Source: Carboxylicivirga sp. M1479
GTDB lineage: Bacteria; Bacteroidota; Bacteroidia; Bacteroidales; Marinilabiliaceae
Assembly: GCF_007097485.1 (NCBI RefSeq)
Contig: NZ_VKDE01000013.1
Span: 1-64,000, forward strand
Direction of reading: 5' to 3'
Length of the DNA stretch: 64,000 bases
The notes under the pieces were generated by a model that was given only the letters and a program-made list of their open reading frames with translations, was not told where the DNA came from and did no database searches. The translations under genes were made by a program, and so were the position numbers. Below, piece by piece: positions 181 through 9,181 of the stretch (its first letter is position 1; each line of letters opens with the position of its first letter).

Positions 181-1563
<1,383 letters not shown>

Positions 1564-1758: not shown

Positions 1759-4700
1759 ATGAAGAAAGGGGAACAAGAACATAAATTAGCAAGTAAATTT
1801 GATGTTACACCACGATCATCACGTGTGTTAAAAGTACTTGATGAGCTTAATGAAATAATGTTGTTGGGCAACCCGATTGATGAAACCCTGGAAGATTTAG
1901 CTAGGGTAGCGTCAAATGGTTTTTCTTACAACGATGCTCTAGTTCGGATTCAATATAAAGCTCAGGTTTACCCAACTAAAGAGTTGATGGAAACCGATTG
2001 GGTTTTAACTGAACGTTTTTCAACGATTGATAATCAAAAAGGAGTCATCGATGCATTTTACCATCAAGAACATCCACGTGAGAATGAAGGTGTTTTTACC
2101 AAAGATGAAAGAACGCTGTTGAACCAACTGGCACGCATGATTTCTGGTTATATTAATCGAGTGCTGGCCGAGCGAAACCGTTCCGAATCATTGGAGCGAT
2201 TAAAGGAGTTAGATACAATTAATCGAACCACACGCATTATTAACGAGGGGCAATCGGTAAAGGATGTGTTGCAGCAAATAGTATTTACCATTCCTATGGG
2301 TTGGCAATATCCCAAATATACAGTCGTACGTTTGCAGTATGACCAAGCTGAATTTACAAGTGAATATTTTGTAGAAAGCGAATGGGTACAAACTCAGCGA
2401 TTCCATACTGTAGATGGAAAAACTGGTTCATTGGATGTATTCTATACAAAAGAATTTTCAGCGATTAATGGTGATCCCTTTCTGGCTGAAGAAAGAGACT
2501 TATTAATTAATTTATCCCGCCTAGTAACTGATTACTTAAATAATCAATTGGCAATAAAGGAACAGCTTGAAAAGAATGAGAGGCTGAAGGAATTGTCAGC
2601 CATTAACGAGACTTCGCGCATTATTGCTTTGAACCTTGGAGTGCCCTATACATTAAATAAAATTGCCACCAAGTTACCTGCGGGTATGCAGCATCCTAAT
2701 TATTCAGTAGCTCGAATTGTATTTGGTAACGATGTATTTACGAGTGATGGTTTTGCCGAAAGTCCGTGGTTATTGAGTCAATCTTTTGAAACCATCAATG
2801 GCAAAAAAGGAGCTGTGGAGGTGTTTTACCTAAAGGAGATAGCCAAAACAAAAGAAGAGCTATTCCTCAACGAAGAAAATGACCTGATTAAAAATATCAG
2901 CCACCTTATTGTTGGTTATTTAAATGGCGAAGAAGCTCGAAACTTGGTAGAACATATTAAAAGGCCTTATTTAAAAAGACCTCTGCAGGTAACTGCCAAT
3001 CTTAACGAGGCATATAAAAGCAAGCACCTACTCCAGAATTTCATGCACCGCAATAATGCCGCACGCGATATTTATCACGATCTGATGCCTTTTAGGGTAA
3101 AGGAAATATTGTTGGTGGCCAACCTTTACGATGCTTATGCAATAGAAAATGAGGGACGTTTTACAGAGCAGGTAATGGGCGGATTTTATCAGTTACACTT
3201 ATCCTTGTTGCCGCGAGTAACTGGTGTTACCACCTATCAGGAAGCAATTAATAAATTAAACGAAAAGCATTACGATTTAATAATTGTGATGGTTGGTGTT
3301 GATAAACAATCGCCCGTTGACCTCAGTCAAATGGTCAAAAAAGATTTTCCGTACATACCTATTTTTATGCTGCTCAATAACGATGCAGATATTCCTTTTT
3401 ACCAGGCCAGACAAAGGGAACTGGGTGTTCTAGACGAAATTTTCGTATGGAATGGTGATCCTAAAGTCTTTTCATCGATGGTATTTCACTTGGAAGATAA
3501 AGTGAACGTAGAGAATGATACGGAAATTGGTTTAGCACGGGTTATTTTATTAGTGGAGGATTCAGTAAGGTATTACTCCAAGTATTTGCCTTTACTCTAT
3601 GCTAGTGTGTTGGAGCAGACCAAACGTTTAATTGACGATGTTAAAGAAGATAAGTTGTATGGCGTATTGCGTTTAAAGGCACGACCTAAAATACTATTGG
3701 CAAGGACCTATGAGGAAGCATTGGAGATGTTTGAAAAATATAGGGATTATTTATTGTGTCTGATTTCGGATGTTGAATTCTCTAAAAATGGCCAAGTAAA
3801 TGCAAATGCAGGTTTTGATTTGGTTAATTATGCCAAAATTCAGATTCCCGACTTGCCCGTTATTTTGCAATCTTCCAAAATAGAATACTCGCAAGATGCC
3901 TATGAGCTTAAAACTGTATTTATTAATAAGTACTCTGAAAGTTTAATTCAAGACATTAAAACTTTTATCAGCCATTATTTAGGCTTTGGTAATTTCTCCT
4001 ATAAAGATGCGAATGGACGAACGATTGCGGTAGCCAGTAATTTAAAAGAGTTTGAGCGAACAATGCGTAAGGTGCCTGTCGAATCAATTGTTTATCATTC
4101 CCGAAAAAACCATTTTTCCTTGTGGTTAATGGCAAGGGGCGAGATTAAAATAGCACGTAAAATTGCTCCTAAGCGGATAACTGATTTTGAAGATGCAGAA
4201 CAAATTCGTAGCTACTTACTAAAAGTTATAATTGAACATCGAAAAGAAAAAAATCAAGGCAAAGTTATTGATTTTGACGAAGTGGAAGTTATAGATACCA
4301 CCAATATCGTTCGTTTATCAGGAGGCTCTCTTGGAGGTAAGGGGCGTGGTTTATCTTTTATCAATACCTTGCTGTTTAATTTCGACTTTGCCGCTTACGT
4401 GCCTGGCATTAATATTCAAACACCTCGAACTACTGTAATTGGCACGGATGAGTTTGAACAGTTTATAGAACGCAATAATTTTCACGAGTTGGTATTTCGT
4501 CAGTTAAGTTATGCCGAAATCAAAGAGCTCTTTCTAAAGGGTAATTTATCTGCAGAGCTTGTACAGTATTTAGATCGCTTGATGGATCAATTTACCAGGC
4601 CCATAGCTGTGCGTTCTTCAGGTTTGTTGGAGGATAGCCAAAAACAGCCTTTTGCTGGTGTGTTTGAGACTTATTTGTTGCCCAATAATGCCAATAGTAA

Positions 4701-5985
4701 AAGTGATCGTTTAAATGAGCTTTGTAAAGCGGTTAAAATGGTATTCGCATCGGTTTACAGTGATAAAGCACGAGCCTTTACCGAGGCGGTTGATTTTAAG
4801 GTTGAAGAAGAGAAAATGGCCGTTGTGATTCAAGAGGCTGTTGGAAAACAACATAACGACACCTTTTACCCGCATATTAGCGGTGTTGCACAATCATACA
4901 ATTATTATGCATTCGGACATATGAATCCTGAAGACGGTTTTGCAGTTGCAGCATTGGGTTTTGGTAAGTATGTGGTCGATGGAGAAAAAGCATTTCGTTT
5001 TTGTCCTGTTTACCCTGAATTGGATAACGTAACGCCAATTGAGCAAATGAAAAACTCCCAAACCGAATTTTATGCCATCGATATGCGCCAACACCACCTG
5101 GATTTTTCTGCGGGTGATTCTGCTGGATTGGTAAGGCTGGATATTGATGATGCAGAGATGCATGGCGCCTTAAAGCATTTGGCATCTGTTTATAATGTAG
5201 ATAATCAACACGTAGAATCTGGATTAGAGAGTAGTGGTCCGCGCATTATTAATTTTGCTAATATATTAAAGCATCATTATATCCCATTTGCAAAATCATT
5301 GGAAGTAGTGCTCGATGTGGTAAAGGAGGCCATGGGTACACCTGTTGAAATTGAATACGCCATTGATTTGACGAAAGATGAAGAGGGAAGAGCTACGTTC
5401 TATTTATTACAAATTAAACCATTATTAGGTGGTGATCAGAATTATTCTATCAATCCAAACAGTATTGATAGTGAGAATGTTATTCTTCAATCCAACCAAA
5501 GTATGGGAAATGGTAAGAACAAAACCATATCCGACATTATTTATATAGATAGAAATCGGTTTGATAAAGCTAAAACAAGAGAGATGGCGGATGAGATTGA
5601 GCAGTTTAATTCGATGCTTAAAAAACAAAACAGGAATTACATGCTTATTGGTCCAGGTCGTTGGGGTACAAGAGATCCCTGGATAGGAATTCCCGTTACC
5701 TGGTCGCAAATTTCGAATGCTAAAATGATTGTCGAAACCGATTTGGAGGATTTTCCCTTGGAGGCCTCTGGTGGATCGCATTTTTTTCATAATGTAACAT
5801 CCATGCAAGTCGCTTATTGCTCGGTTAGTGAAAGTGATGCCTCATCATTTATCAAATGGGATGAATTGAATAATGCCAAGCTAATTGGACAAACAACTTA
5901 TTTTAGGCATATTCGATTCGATAAACCAATAGTTATACGCCTTGATGGAAGAAAGCGTAAGGCCATTGTAACAAAGGGGTCTTGA
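1759..5985 (+). CDS. Triple GAF-like, double receiver-like, PEP/pyruvate-binding ATP-grasp fusion protein
   Basis: The 1408-residue protein has no signal peptide or membrane segment. Visible layout: three tandem related segments of about 110 residues (roughly 25-135, 155-265, 285-390) that look GAF-like, each with a W(V/L)-x-F-x-T(I/V) core and a V-(F/Y)-Y strand; a degenerate receiver-like domain (about 448-545); a second receiver with ILLVEDS and a candidate phospho-acceptor Asp671 in LISDVEF; then the ATP-grasp module of PEP synthase/PPDK (GGSLGGKGRGL near 855, RPIAVRSSGLLEDS near 947-960). The C-terminal ~110 residues carry LIGPGRWG and GGSHFFHN. The phosphohistidine domain and the PEP-binding TIM barrel of true PEP synthase are absent, so an automatic label of PEP synthase would mislead. 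The next gene is a paralogue lacking the GAF-like part. Function is unknown; a phosphorelay- or ligand-regulated phosphotransfer role is inference. Confidence 0.85.
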   Translation: MKKGEQEHKLASKFDVTPRSSRVLKVLDELNEIMLLGNPIDETLEDLARVASNGFSYNDALVRIQYKAQVYPTKELMETDWVLTERFSTIDNQKGVIDAFYHQEHPRENEGVFTKDERTLLNQLARMISGYINRVLAERNRSESLERLKELDTINRTTRIINEGQSVKDVLQQIVFTIPMGWQYPKYTVVRLQYDQAEFTSEYFVESEWVQTQRFHTVDGKTGSLDVFYTKEFSAINGDPFLAEERDLLINLSRLVTDYLNNQLAIKEQLEKNERLKELSAINETSRIIALNLGVPYTLNKIATKLPAGMQHPNYSVARIVFGNDVFTSDGFAESPWLLSQSFETINGKKGAVEVFYLKEIAKTKEELFLNEENDLIKNISHLIVGYLNGEEARNLVEHIKRPYLKRPLQVTANLNEAYKSKHLLQNFMHRNNAARDIYHDLMPFRVKEILLVANLYDAYAIENEGRFTEQVMGGFYQLHLSLLPRVTGVTTYQEAINKLNEKHYDLIIVMVGVDKQSPVDLSQMVKKDFPYIPIFMLLNNDADIPFYQARQRELGVLDEIFVWNGDPKVFSSMVFHLEDKVNVENDTEIGLARVILLVEDSVRYYSKYLPLLYASVLEQTKRLIDDVKEDKLYGVLRLKARPKILLARTYEEALEMFEKYRDYLLCLISDVEFSKNGQVNANAGFDLVNYAKIQIPDLPVILQSSKIEYSQDAYELKTVFINKYSESLIQDIKTFISHYLGFGNFSYKDANGRTIAVASNLKEFERTMRKVPVESIVYHSRKNHFSLWLMARGEIKIARKIAPKRITDFEDAEQIRSYLLKVIIEHRKEKNQGKVIDFDEVEVIDTTNIVRLSGGSLGGKGRGLSFINTLLFNFDFAAYVPGINIQTPRTTVIGTDEFEQFIERNNFHELVFRQLSYAEIKELFLKGNLSAELVQYLDRLMDQFTRPIAVRSSGLLEDSQKQPFAGVFETYLLPNNANSKSDRLNELCKAVKMVFASVYSDKARAFTEAVDFKVEEEKMAVVIQEAVGKQHNDTFYPHISGVAQSYNYYAFGHMNPEDGFAVAALGFGKYVVDGEKAFRFCPVYPELDNVTPIEQMKNSQTEFYAIDMRQHHLDFSAGDSAGLVRLDIDDAEMHGALKHLASVYNVDNQHVESGLESSGPRIINFANILKHHYIPFAKSLEVVLDVVKEAMGTPVEIEYAIDLTKDEEGRATFYLLQIKPLLGGDQNYSINPNSIDSENVILQSNQSMGNGKNKTISDIIYIDRNRFDKAKTREMADEIEQFNSMLKKQNRNYMLIGPGRWGTRDPWIGIPVTWSQISNAKMIVETDLEDFPLEASGGSHFFHNVTSMQVAYCSVSESDASSFIKWDELNNAKLIGQTTYFRHIRFDKPIVIRLDGRKRKAIVTKGS

Positions 5986-6031
5986 ATGAATCTATCACTA
6001 GGGATACCTCTTTGTAGCTAAGTGTTGTAGT

Positions 6032-6049
6032 GAATACCCAATGGTATTC
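6032..6049. other. Small hairpin between the two paralogues
   Basis: A perfect 7-bp stem (6032-6038 with 6043-6049) and a 4-base loop lie just before the second gene. No T-run follows, so it is not a standard terminator. It may affect translation or mRNA processing, or be chance. Confidence 0.3.
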
Positions 6050-6069
6050 TGTAATAAAAACTGAATTAG

Positions 6070-9000
6070 ATGACAAAACCATTGAATATACAAAATGCCA
6101 ATTATTTCTCAGAAACCCCATTTGGCCATTTAATGCAACGGCGCATACATAAAGTACTCTTAATATGTAGTGGTTACGATGCTTTTATGCTTGATGAGGA
6201 TGGGCGAATTGATGAACAAATATTTAATGAGTACGTGTCATTAAACCTACGTTATCCACCACAATTTATCCATGTAGAAACATCGGAAGAGGCCCTTGTT
6301 GTGTTGGAAAATGAACCGATTGATCTGGTAATAACGATGTTGAGTATTGGAGGGATGGATCCTTTTTCCATGGCTAAAAAGGTAAAAGAATCTTACGAAT
6401 CTATTCCCATTGTAGTGCTCACGCCATTTTCGCGAGAAGTTTCAGTACGTATGAGTCGCGAAGATACCAGTGCGATTGATTATGTGTTTTGCTGGTTAGG
6501 GAATGCAGATATAATGCTCGCTATCATTAAGCTGATTGAGGATGAAATGAATGTGGAGCACGATGTGGAGGAAGTGGGTGTTCAAACTATTTTACTGGTT
6601 GAAGATTCTGTGCGTTTCTATTCGAGTTACCTGCCTCTGATATATCGAATTATCCTTACCCAGGCGAAAAAGTTTATGGATGAGGGTTTGAACGAGCATC
6701 AAAAAATGATGCGTATGCGTGGGCGTCCCAAAATACTTTTAGCCAGAACATATGAAGAGGCAATAGAATTGTATGAAAGTTACGAGGAAAACTTACTTGG
6801 TATTATATCTGATGTATCCTATAACAAAGGAGGTGTAAAAGATACCGAAGCAGGATTAAAGCTAGCCCGACATGTAAAAGGGAGAAATAAGTACATGCCT
6901 TTTCTCTTACAATCGTCAAACAGAAACCTTGAGGCTGAAGCCAAAGAGTTAAGGGTTGCTTTTTTATACAAACATTCCTCTTCACTTCTTCGTCGTTTAA
7001 AGCACTTCATCAATAAATATTTGGCTTTTGGCGATTTCGTATTTGTTGATCCTAAAAGTGGTAAAGAGGTTGGTCGTGTGAGTAACTTAAAAGAGTTGCA
7101 GGATAAAATATATAAAATACCAGACGAATCGTTGTTTTATCATTTTCAGCGTGATCATGTTTCGAAATGGCTTAATGCACGCGCCTTATTTTCCGTAGCT
7201 GAAGTGATTAAGTATTTGAAAGTGGAGGATTTTACCGACTTGGAGGCCACCAAACGTTTTGTGTTTGATACAATTGCGAACTTTAGGTATAGTAAAGGAA
7301 GAGGTATTATCGCCAAGTTTTACCGTGAAAAGTTTGATGAATACCTAACTTTTACGCGTATTGGCGATGGAACCATTGGAGGGAAAGCACGTGGGTTGGC
7401 TTTTTTGAACTTGTTAATTAAAAAATACAATGCTTTTTATGCAATGGATAATGTGGTCGTTACCATTCCGCGAACTGTTGTGTTAAGTACCGATGTGTTT
7501 GAAGAGTTTATGGAAGTTAATGAGTTGTACCCAACAGCTTTGTCTGAAATTGCCGATGAAGAGATATTGGATGCTTTTGTGAAAGCTCATTTACCCGAAC
7601 GGATACATGGCGATTTATTAAAATTTGTTTCGGTAATAGAGGGGCCTATAGCTGTTCGTTCATCGAGTGTTTTGGAGGATAGTCATTATCAGCCTTTTGC
7701 TGGTATTTATTCGACCTATATGATTGCCAATAGTGATGAGGAAGAACTCATGTTAGAGCAGTTATGTAATGCTATCAAATGTGTGTATGCTTCAGCTTTT
7801 TACAATTCGAGTAAGCGCTATATGGAAGCTACCATGAATGTGATTGATGAAGAGCGGATGGGTATTGTTTTGCAAGAAGTTGTTGGGCAAAAGCATGGCG
7901 ATGTATTCTATCCTACATTTTCGGGTGTTGGCCGCTCAGTTAACTTTTATCCAATTGAACCAGAAAAGGCAGAGGATGGAACTGTCAATGTGGCAATGGG
8001 CTTGGGGAAGCATATTGTTGAAGGGAGTGCGTCATTGCGTTTCTCGCCAAAGTACCCTCAAAAGATATTGCAACTGTCGAGCACAGATATGGCAGTGCGC
8101 GAGACTCAAAAGAATTTCTTTGCGCTGGATTTGAAATCATCGAGCTTCCACCCTGCTGTAAATGACTCGATAAATATTGTTAAGCTTGATTTAAAAACGG
8201 CGGAAGCACACGGAACTTTACGTTGGTTAGGGTCAGTTTATGATTACAACAACCACATGATTCGCGATGGTTTAATGGCTAAAGGGCTCAGGCTGGTTAC
8301 TTTTTCCAATGTGCTTAAATATGATGCGTTTCCATTGGCGCCAATTATAGAAAAGGTATTGGAGATTGGTCAAAAAGAGATGAATCAACCTGTTGAAGTG
8401 GAGTTTGCTGTTGATTTACAGGTGCCACAAGGTCAACCACCCATTTTTTACTTATTACAAATACGCCCTATAGTTGATACCAAAGAATCGATTAACGAAA
8501 ACCTGGAAGAGGTTAATCCAACGGATACCATTATTTATTCTAATTCGGCCTTGGGTAATGGGGTAATTGAAGATATTCAGGATGTGATTTATGTGAAGTC
8601 GGAAAACTTTAACCCAGCCAATAATACTCTGATTGCACCAATAATTGAAAAGTTAAATGCTCCGTTTCATGCTAGTCAAAAGCCATATGTACTCATTGGT
8701 CCAGGGCGATGGGGATCACAAGATTCATGGTTGGGTGTGCCAGTTAAGTGGACACAAATATCTGCTGCTCGGTTAATTGTTGAAACTGGATTAGAGAATT
8801 ACCGTGTTGATCCAAGCCAAGGAACACATTTCTTTCAGAATCTTACTAGCTTACGTGTTGGTTATTTCACTGTTACGCCATCCATAGGTGATGGATATAT
8901 TAATACGGAGTATCTTAATGATTTGCCAGCTGTGTATGAAGATGAATACGTTCGCCATGTGCAATTGCCATTTATGAGTTGTATAAAAATAGATGGTCAA

Positions 9001-9081
9001 AAAGGAATAGGCTTGCTTGATTTTCCAAAAGGCAATAATGATGGAGAAGACGATGTTCAGTCGGATTTTAATTTGCAATAA
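6070..9081 (+). CDS. Receiver-like / PEP-pyruvate-binding ATP-grasp fusion protein, short paralogue
   Basis: The 1003-residue cytoplasmic protein is collinear with residues from about 440 onward of the preceding gene product. It has a degenerate receiver (about 28-125) in which the usual acceptor Asp position reads Met/Leu in LVITMLSIGGMD; an apparently intact receiver (about 173-300; ILLVEDS and Asp248 in IISDVS); a linker; then the PPDK-type ATP-grasp module (IGDGTIGGKARGLAFL near 431, GPIAVRSSSVLEDS near 525). The C-terminal module has VLIGPGRWGSQDSWLG and SQGTHFFQNLTS. Neither the phosphohistidine domain nor the PEP barrel is present. It starts 84 bases after its paralogue, same strand, probably co-transcribed. 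Catalysis is unproven; this may be a signalling or scaffold protein. Confidence 0.87.
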   Translation: MTKPLNIQNANYFSETPFGHLMQRRIHKVLLICSGYDAFMLDEDGRIDEQIFNEYVSLNLRYPPQFIHVETSEEALVVLENEPIDLVITMLSIGGMDPFSMAKKVKESYESIPIVVLTPFSREVSVRMSREDTSAIDYVFCWLGNADIMLAIIKLIEDEMNVEHDVEEVGVQTILLVEDSVRFYSSYLPLIYRIILTQAKKFMDEGLNEHQKMMRMRGRPKILLARTYEEAIELYESYEENLLGIISDVSYNKGGVKDTEAGLKLARHVKGRNKYMPFLLQSSNRNLEAEAKELRVAFLYKHSSSLLRRLKHFINKYLAFGDFVFVDPKSGKEVGRVSNLKELQDKIYKIPDESLFYHFQRDHVSKWLNARALFSVAEVIKYLKVEDFTDLEATKRFVFDTIANFRYSKGRGIIAKFYREKFDEYLTFTRIGDGTIGGKARGLAFLNLLIKKYNAFYAMDNVVVTIPRTVVLSTDVFEEFMEVNELYPTALSEIADEEILDAFVKAHLPERIHGDLLKFVSVIEGPIAVRSSSVLEDSHYQPFAGIYSTYMIANSDEEELMLEQLCNAIKCVYASAFYNSSKRYMEATMNVIDEERMGIVLQEVVGQKHGDVFYPTFSGVGRSVNFYPIEPEKAEDGTVNVAMGLGKHIVEGSASLRFSPKYPQKILQLSSTDMAVRETQKNFFALDLKSSSFHPAVNDSINIVKLDLKTAEAHGTLRWLGSVYDYNNHMIRDGLMAKGLRLVTFSNVLKYDAFPLAPIIEKVLEIGQKEMNQPVEVEFAVDLQVPQGQPPIFYLLQIRPIVDTKESINENLEEVNPTDTIIYSNSALGNGVIEDIQDVIYVKSENFNPANNTLIAPIIEKLNAPFHASQKPYVLIGPGRWGSQDSWLGVPVKWTQISAARLIVETGLENYRVDPSQGTHFFQNLTSLRVGYFTVTPSIGDGYINTEYLNDLPAVYEDEYVRHVQLPFMSCIKIDGQKGIGLLDFPKGNNDGEDDVQSDFNLQ

Positions 9082-9155: not shown

Positions 9156-9181
9156 AAAAGACTGGTTAAAGCCAGTCTTTT
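9156..9181. terminator. Bidirectional terminator between convergent genes
   Basis: A 10-bp perfect stem (AAAAGACTGG with its complement) and a 6-base loop lie between two genes whose 3' ends face each other. A/T runs on both sides fit use in both directions. Confidence 0.85.

Follow-up and report, generated by a model that had tools for sequence, protein, structure and literature searches.

The window analysed here, 64,000 nucleotides from Carboxylicivirga sp. M1479 (contig NZ_VKDE01000013.1, positions 1 to 64,000), carries two adjacent open reading frames (ORFs) in which receiver-like domains are joined to the ATP-binding half of phosphoenolpyruvate (PEP) synthase and pyruvate phosphate dikinase (PPDK). 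We propose, at a probability of about one half, that both products are histidine kinases derived from PEP synthase which carry exchangeable sensors and regulate glutamate dehydrogenase (GDH); regulation of GDH is proposed because many relatives of the two genes adjoin GDH genes in two bacterial phyla. From domain architecture, residue conservation, predicted fold and gene linkage, described below, we infer autophosphorylation, gating by the receiver, the target and the direction of the effect. Both ORFs, which had first been noted from the DNA letters (hereafter the original prediction), are real.

A PEP synthase-like core with a candidate phosphohistidine domain

The joining of receiver-like domains to the ATP-binding half of PEP synthase and PPDK was confirmed in both proteins, with the ATP-grasp domain identified by Pfam as PPDK_N and the receiver by modelling. 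The second protein was modelled with AlphaFold2 on a 55-sequence alignment (pLDDT 86.2, pTM 0.80), and in this predicted model the part from about residue 416 onward matches PEP synthase, PPDK and rifampin phosphotransferase. Conservation was counted on 171 family members, of which 8 partial ones were left out and one duplicate was merged, leaving 162 distinct full-length members. The ATP-site residues K439, R530, E778 and Q797 (second protein numbering is used throughout unless stated), which we take to be the catalytic Lys, Arg, Glu and Gln of the ATP-grasp domain, are invariant in this set (162/162). Neither protein matches PEP-utilizers (PF00391) or the C-terminal PEP barrel in a Pfam search, and the chain of the second protein ends at residue 1003, only 189 residues past its PPDK_N match, so that it has no room for a pyruvate/PEP barrel. 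Lacking this barrel, the proteins cannot perform the whole PEP synthase reaction alone, and on both counts the original prediction was correct.

The original prediction had further reported the absence of a phosphohistidine swivel domain. This holds for recognizable sequence, given that a TSHAA-like motif is missing from all 162 distinct full-length members and PF00391 from both proteins, but the predicted fold indicates that a sequence-divergent swivel domain is probably present. We read the C-terminal domain, with moderate confidence, as a derived, sequence-divergent phosphohistidine domain because of its structural matches, its invariant residues and a candidate histidine, H920, that begins a helix (residues 920-927 of the AlphaFold2 model). 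The catalytic His of PPDK likewise starts a helix. H920 sits in the motif S-x-G-[ST]-H-F-F, and R880, W881, G882, S916, G918, H920, F921 and F922 are all invariant (162/162); H920 had first been counted in a class chosen by its HFF motif, which is partly circular, and the count was hence repeated without this filter, again giving 162/162.

When residues 804-988 were modelled alone (pLDDT 92.8), the top row in VIA-align was pyruvate kinase 2e28, residues 476-583 (Z 6.6, root-mean-square deviation (rmsd) 3.1, 108 residues aligned). The other seven of the eight best rows, with Z between 5.6 and 6.4, come from the phosphohistidine domains of PPDK, rifampin phosphotransferase and Enzyme I. PPDK is represented by 5jvj 374-510 (Z 6.4, rmsd 3.7, 124 aligned), 5jvn 381-510 (6.4, 3.5, 119), 5lu4 377-510 (6.2, 3.9, 124) and 2x0s 404-532 (5.6, 3.9, 121), rifampin phosphotransferase by 5hv2 764-867 (6.4, 3.0, 103), and the Enzyme I group by Enzyme I 5woy (6.0, 3.1, 107) and Enzyme I-Ntr 5t1o (5.6, 3.4, 103). 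With the whole model as query, 10 of the 14 rows of PEP synthase, PPDK or rifampin phosphotransferase type extend beyond residue 900, for example 416-987 on 2ols 4-467 and 414-987 on 1dik 6-511, these ranges giving the first and last aligned residue only. A sequence comparison with two PEP synthases, anchored on the ATP-grasp domain, is confident up to about residue 842 (Prob 98.8, vs. 7.4 against 19 PPDKs), which would fall inside the first hairpin of the His domain.

Several observations weigh against this interpretation of the core. The remaining 4 of the 14 whole-model rows stop by residue 806. The best Z obtained for the lone domain (6.6) lies below 8, under which VIA-align cautions that a match may reflect no more than a widespread arrangement. 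Other proteins, among them TRiC apical domains (chaperonins) and aconitase, of the same SCOP fold (c.8), make up most rows at rank 9 (Z 5.5) and lower. VIA-align re-aligns only the candidates supplied by Foldseek, which itself gives the lone domain no match at E <= 0.001; the rows listed are unrelated proteins, and no phosphohistidine protein is found among the best 50 Foldseek matches listed. Profile comparison with hhalign gave Prob 0.1 when the C-terminal alignment of 55 rows was set against 26 swivel segments, and no homology when trimmed C-terminal alignments were compared with PPDK, PEP synthase, Enzyme I and pooled sets. Forcing the alignment with PEP synthase through to the chain end brings GPGRWGS rather than GTHFFQN under GGRTSHA, and the register of H920 is a putative one. 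Within the ATP site, position 799 is Lys in 16/162 members and His in 1/162, the first protein also having Lys. Our preference for H920 over the GPGRWGS register is a judgement, made because the structural matches span the domain end to end and because H920 is invariant. Structure prediction and domain search, two of the checks proposed with the original prediction, gave a divided answer: the barrel is absent as claimed, while a cryptic phosphohistidine domain is probable, with sequence profiles and Foldseek not confirming it.

Linkage to glutamate dehydrogenase genes

Of 395 Bacteroidota genomes, 69, that of the window among them, matched the family profile at E <= 1e-10. Stretches around members were taken from all 69 genomes, with at most two candidates scored in each, so that copy numbers are lower bounds. 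A member adjoins a GDH gene, with zero intervening non-family ORF of at least 90 amino acids (aa), in 57 of the 69 genomes and in 100 of 122 member rows, the latter including truncated or split copies and, once, a truncated copy counted beside its full one. The median same-strand gap between member and GDH is 122 bp (93 rows). As a control, only 4 GDH genes were found among 628 ORFs located three or more genes away. Because nearly all of 61 Bacteroidota genomes hold only one to six PF00208 matches (one holds none), we estimate that chance adjacency to GDH is well under 1% per member.

This linkage also depends on the type of both partners. Among members with a same-strand GDH gene directly upstream, the receiver-type ones are preceded by the GdhA type in 42/42 cases and the sensor-type and short ones by the GdhB type in 42/46, with 34 of the 122 member rows having no GDH gene in this position. 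The homolog of Parabacteroides distasonis (WP_041525632.1) stands divergently to gdhA, an arrangement also present in the window. The association extends to a second phylum, Ca. Delongbacteria, where the C-terminal domain was found in 12/13 genomes and an adjacent GDH gene in 9 of these 12, judged on the stretches fetched. Clusters such as GDH-short-sensor-phosphoesterase-receiver-GDH-receiver are present (L207-L209), and a calcineurin-like phosphoesterase often accompanies the GDH linkage in this phylum. In the main set, this phosphoesterase adjoins a member in 16/16 homologs (PF00149 in the two tested), a count favoured by sampling because the DNA was fetched around members.

Exceptions to the linkage count against GDH as a general partner. 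No GDH-adjacent member was found in 12 of the 69 Bacteroidota genomes, nor in 3 of the 12 Ca. Delongbacteria genomes with the domain, judged on the same fetched stretches. The linkage is weaker nearer to the window's own lineage: at the loci of named relatives GDH is adjacent in 16/34 and not in 18, some of these contigs ending early. A third paralog in the window's genome has an acetyl-CoA synthetase gene downstream, and because of this paralog we consider that members may have other metabolic enzymes as partners.

The third paralog itself (999 aa, L041:856-3855 on contig C56) has the architecture of the second protein and lies directly upstream of the acetyl-CoA synthetase gene. In Prevotella oral taxon 299, no GDH gene lies inside the 17.7-kb stretch around the homolog. 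A tblastn search of plasmids returned 19 records, three of them full-length Bacteroidota matches, one in Phocaeicola, and 16 partial; neighbourhoods were viewed for the other two full-length matches.

Sensor inputs and gene surroundings

The second receiver of the second protein is clear in the model (VIA-align Z 13.1-15.2 to solved receivers); the Pfam Response_reg matches all fall below cut-off (E 0.012 and 3.5e-5, the latter to the pseudo-receiver of the second protein). Receiver residues were counted in the 109 distinct receiver-type members, a class picked by HFF motif and length, independently of the residues counted. In the complete second receiver, E178, D248 and K301 are each present in 109/109, D179 in 106/109, and Ser or Thr at position 282 in 109/109. 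In contrast, the phospho-acceptor position of the first receiver (position 90) is never Asp, being T in 56, M in 51 and W in 2.

Beyond what the original prediction had described, the first protein carries three sensor repeats, and a GDH gene lies beside the pair. Pfam named no domain in the repeats, and the label GAF-like is our own; by hidden Markov model (HMM) they are related to the N-terminus of members of about 1060 aa, another branch of the family. The same kinase core is found with receivers, with GAF-like sensors, or with neither, and we regard the family as one of signalling proteins because a constant core is combined with varying sensors. A DUF5752 match in the first protein (window 4030-4254, residues 758-832) covers the linker between receiver and ATP-grasp domain, passing the Pfam cut-off in this protein only (25.7 vs. 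23 bits). One receiver-type member (G228:C3, L137) is split by an in-frame TGA into 636 + 343 aa.

The window's genome (5.4 Mb) has as closest named relatives Carboxylicivirga and other Marinilabiliaceae (Bacteroidota), with protein identities of up to 88%. It holds two PF00208 genes, one of them the GDH gene of Table 1, and its only PF00391 match (E <= 0.001) is an ordinary complete PPDK at contig C46. The two ORFs are spaced by 84 bp on the same strand. Terminator-like repeats number 7 in the region vs. a mean of 5.7 in shuffles, and the promoter scan was uninformative, with 21 matches in the region vs. a mean of 26.9 in shuffles.

Table 1. Features of the locus, by position in the window.
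Feature	Positions	Strand	Details
GDH, GdhA type	181..1533	-	450 aa; divergent from the pair; Pfam PF00208 (E 5.6e-90) and PF02812
First protein	1759..5985	+	1408 aa; three GAF-like repeats, pseudo-receiver, receiver, ATP-grasp, C-terminal swivel-like domain
Three GAF-like sensor repeats, first protein	1825..2961	+	residues 23-132, 144-277, 271-401; HMM i-Evalues 1.1e-14, 3.4e-22, 4.4e-19
Pseudo-receiver, first protein	3094..3528	+	about residues 446-590, limits from offset to second protein; Met at phospho-Asp position
Receiver, first protein	3544..3993	+	about residues 596-745, limits estimated from offset to second protein; phospho-Asp D671
PPDK_N ATP-grasp, first protein	4327..5427	+	residues 857-1223, E 3e-41; K861, R952, E1199, Q1218; Lys 1220 replaces the usual Arg
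C-terminal swivel-like domain, first protein	5431..5982	+	candidate phosphohistidine H1341, codon 5779-5781
Second protein	6070..9081	+	1003 aa; pseudo-receiver, receiver, ATP-grasp, C-terminal swivel-like domain
Pseudo-receiver, second protein	6145..6564	+	about residues 26-165; M90 at expected phospho-Asp position
Receiver, second protein	6580..7035	+	residues 171-322; phospho-Asp D248 (codon 6811-6813), K301
PPDK_N ATP-grasp, second protein	7372..8511	+	residues 435-814, E 1.5e-39; K439, R530, E778, Q797, R799
C-terminal domain, second protein	8479..9033	+	residues 804-988; swivelling-domain fold predicted; candidate phosphohistidine H920, codon 8827-8829
Terminator-like inverted repeat with T run	9156..9181	.	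3' of the pair; reported on - strand, stem near-symmetrical; consensus match only

Relatives elsewhere have further neighbours. In some, two GDH-kinase cassettes flank genes for a PAS-HisKA_3 kinase and a NarL-type regulator (L073). In the stretch L025:1-7398, a member fragment of 415 aa has the variant GSHFFHN, as in the first protein, and is followed by genes for Nuo51-type flavin and molybdopterin oxidoreductase domains, which may encode an NAD-linked formate dehydrogenase or a comparable enzyme. The divergent neighbours of receiver-type members lacking GDH (L027:4550-7448, L030) resemble, by eye, NAD(P) transhydrogenase subunits. Genes judged by eye to be hisG-like adjoin or lie near sensor-type members in L082, L084 and L086, and a cluster of hisG-like neighbours of about 289 aa occurs in 13 loci.

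Proposed mechanism and relation to known systems

As the original prediction had suggested, these proteins are best read as receiver-controlled ATP-grasp phosphotransferases. A histidine kinase would phosphorylate the second receiver, the Asp-less pseudo-receiver may serve docking or dimerisation, and in the first protein the GAF-like repeats would supply further input. The state of the receiver would then switch the ATP-grasp domain, which would phosphorylate the His of the C-terminal domain (H920 in the second protein, H1341 in the first), and the phosphohistidine would hand its phosphoryl group to a protein, for which the neighbouring GDH is the best candidate. The acceptor is likely to be a protein because the conserved ATP site and the candidate phosphohistidine are found with no third substrate domain, and GDH is favoured because it is the recurring neighbour, with type-specific pairing. 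In some lineages, gene order suggests that the calcineurin-like phosphoesterase would reverse the mark.

Other mechanisms were weighed against this kinase model. GDH linkage and type pairing require binding only, and what backs the swivel His is the predicted fold, so the core could bind ATP or AMP and dock on GDH as an allosteric partner, a receiver-controlled nucleotide sensor with no phosphate transfer to GDH. We consider this unlikely, since K439, R530, E778, Q797 and H920 are kept in 162/162 members, beyond the needs of binding, and a phosphoesterase gene often adjoins. The best solved relatives, rifampin phosphotransferase and PEP synthase, and the metabolic nature of the gene neighbours would suit an ATP-grasp/swivel phosphotransferase whose substrate is a small molecule taking part in the GDH reaction (glutamate, 2-oxoglutarate); the absence of the third substrate domain of these relatives, and the occurrence of the core with either kind of sensor or without any, make such an enzyme quite improbable. 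A self-contained phosphorelay from H920 to D248, on the same or a paired chain, would turn the receiver into an acceptor rather than an input. His-to-Asp transfer is ordinary two-component chemistry and both residues are invariant in receiver-type members, but sensor-type and short members retain the kinase core and H920 without a receiver, and we give the relay little credence. Least probable of all is the half-enzyme of the original prediction, phosphorylating a separate His-domain protein: the missing PF00391 matches and the negative profile-profile comparison of the C-terminal domain would suit it, but that domain structurally matches phosphohistidine domains and puts a candidate on the same chain, and the search for stand-alone phosphohistidine domains, likewise proposed there, found in the window's genome only the complete PPDK, which is why we rank it low.

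More tentatively, the kinase model may describe a widespread system, in which the ATP-grasp/swivel machine of PEP synthase would have become a protein histidine kinase, its phosphohistidine motif (SxG[ST]HFF) being new and its inputs interchangeable (two receivers, GAF-like sensors, or none), and would mark GDH reversibly with the help of a dedicated phosphoesterase. GDH links carbon and nitrogen metabolism, and the system, if real, would give Bacteroidota and Delongbacteria a post-translational switch for assimilating ammonia. Many Bacteroidota, including the gut species Parabacteroides distasonis, would then control GDH through a kinase class whose annotation there goes no further than 'PEP/pyruvate-binding domain-containing protein'. 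With VadK, discussed below, as a second case, the PEP synthase fold would have repeatedly given rise to regulatory histidine kinases, and the receiver (REC)-PPDK fusions of published censuses would gain a testable target.

The claim that the system is undescribed held in part. REC-PPDK fusions are already known from two censuses (PMC5847659, PMC4395418). We found no description in print of how these genes pair with GDH, of the phosphoesterase, of the three arms of the family or of the cryptic His domain, all apparently new; this is a weak negative given that the subscription literature was mostly uncovered. The first census describes the fusion as Bacteroides-like and names three Ca. Heimdallarchaeota that have it (PMC5847659); the receiver-PPDK fusion is the same, given there as an architecture, with neither a GDH link nor a statement on the C-terminal domain in the text consulted. 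In the second, Asp-less receivers are highly associated with pyruvate phosphate dikinase effectors (PMC4395418); these resemble the first receivers here, which are, however, followed by a complete second receiver.

PEP synthase, PPDK and rifampin phosphotransferase share with the present proteins an ATP-grasp domain alike by sequence, and the first two also the order of ATP-grasp and then swivel-like domain, judged on the predicted model. Unlike these enzymes, our proteins have no PEP or substrate domain, a C-terminal domain without detectable sequence similarity, and sensory N-termini. A closer parallel is VadK (Rv1127c), described as a PPDK-derived histidine kinase with an ATP-binding and a His domain but without the barrel, which autophosphorylates; it co-immunoprecipitates enzymes of the methylcitrate cycle, and its gene lies close to theirs (PMC13400623). 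Our proteins likewise have the ATP-grasp domain and lack the pyruvate/PEP barrel, with a His domain proposed from the predicted fold and a tie to GDH proposed from gene linkage, whereas VadK was overlaid by its authors on PPDK with the catalytic His. Compared by description only, VadK has no receivers and concerns the methylcitrate cycle rather than GDH, and its His domain stands in contrast to the sequence-divergent domain found here. VadK thus provides a precedent for the step from PPDK to a regulatory kinase.

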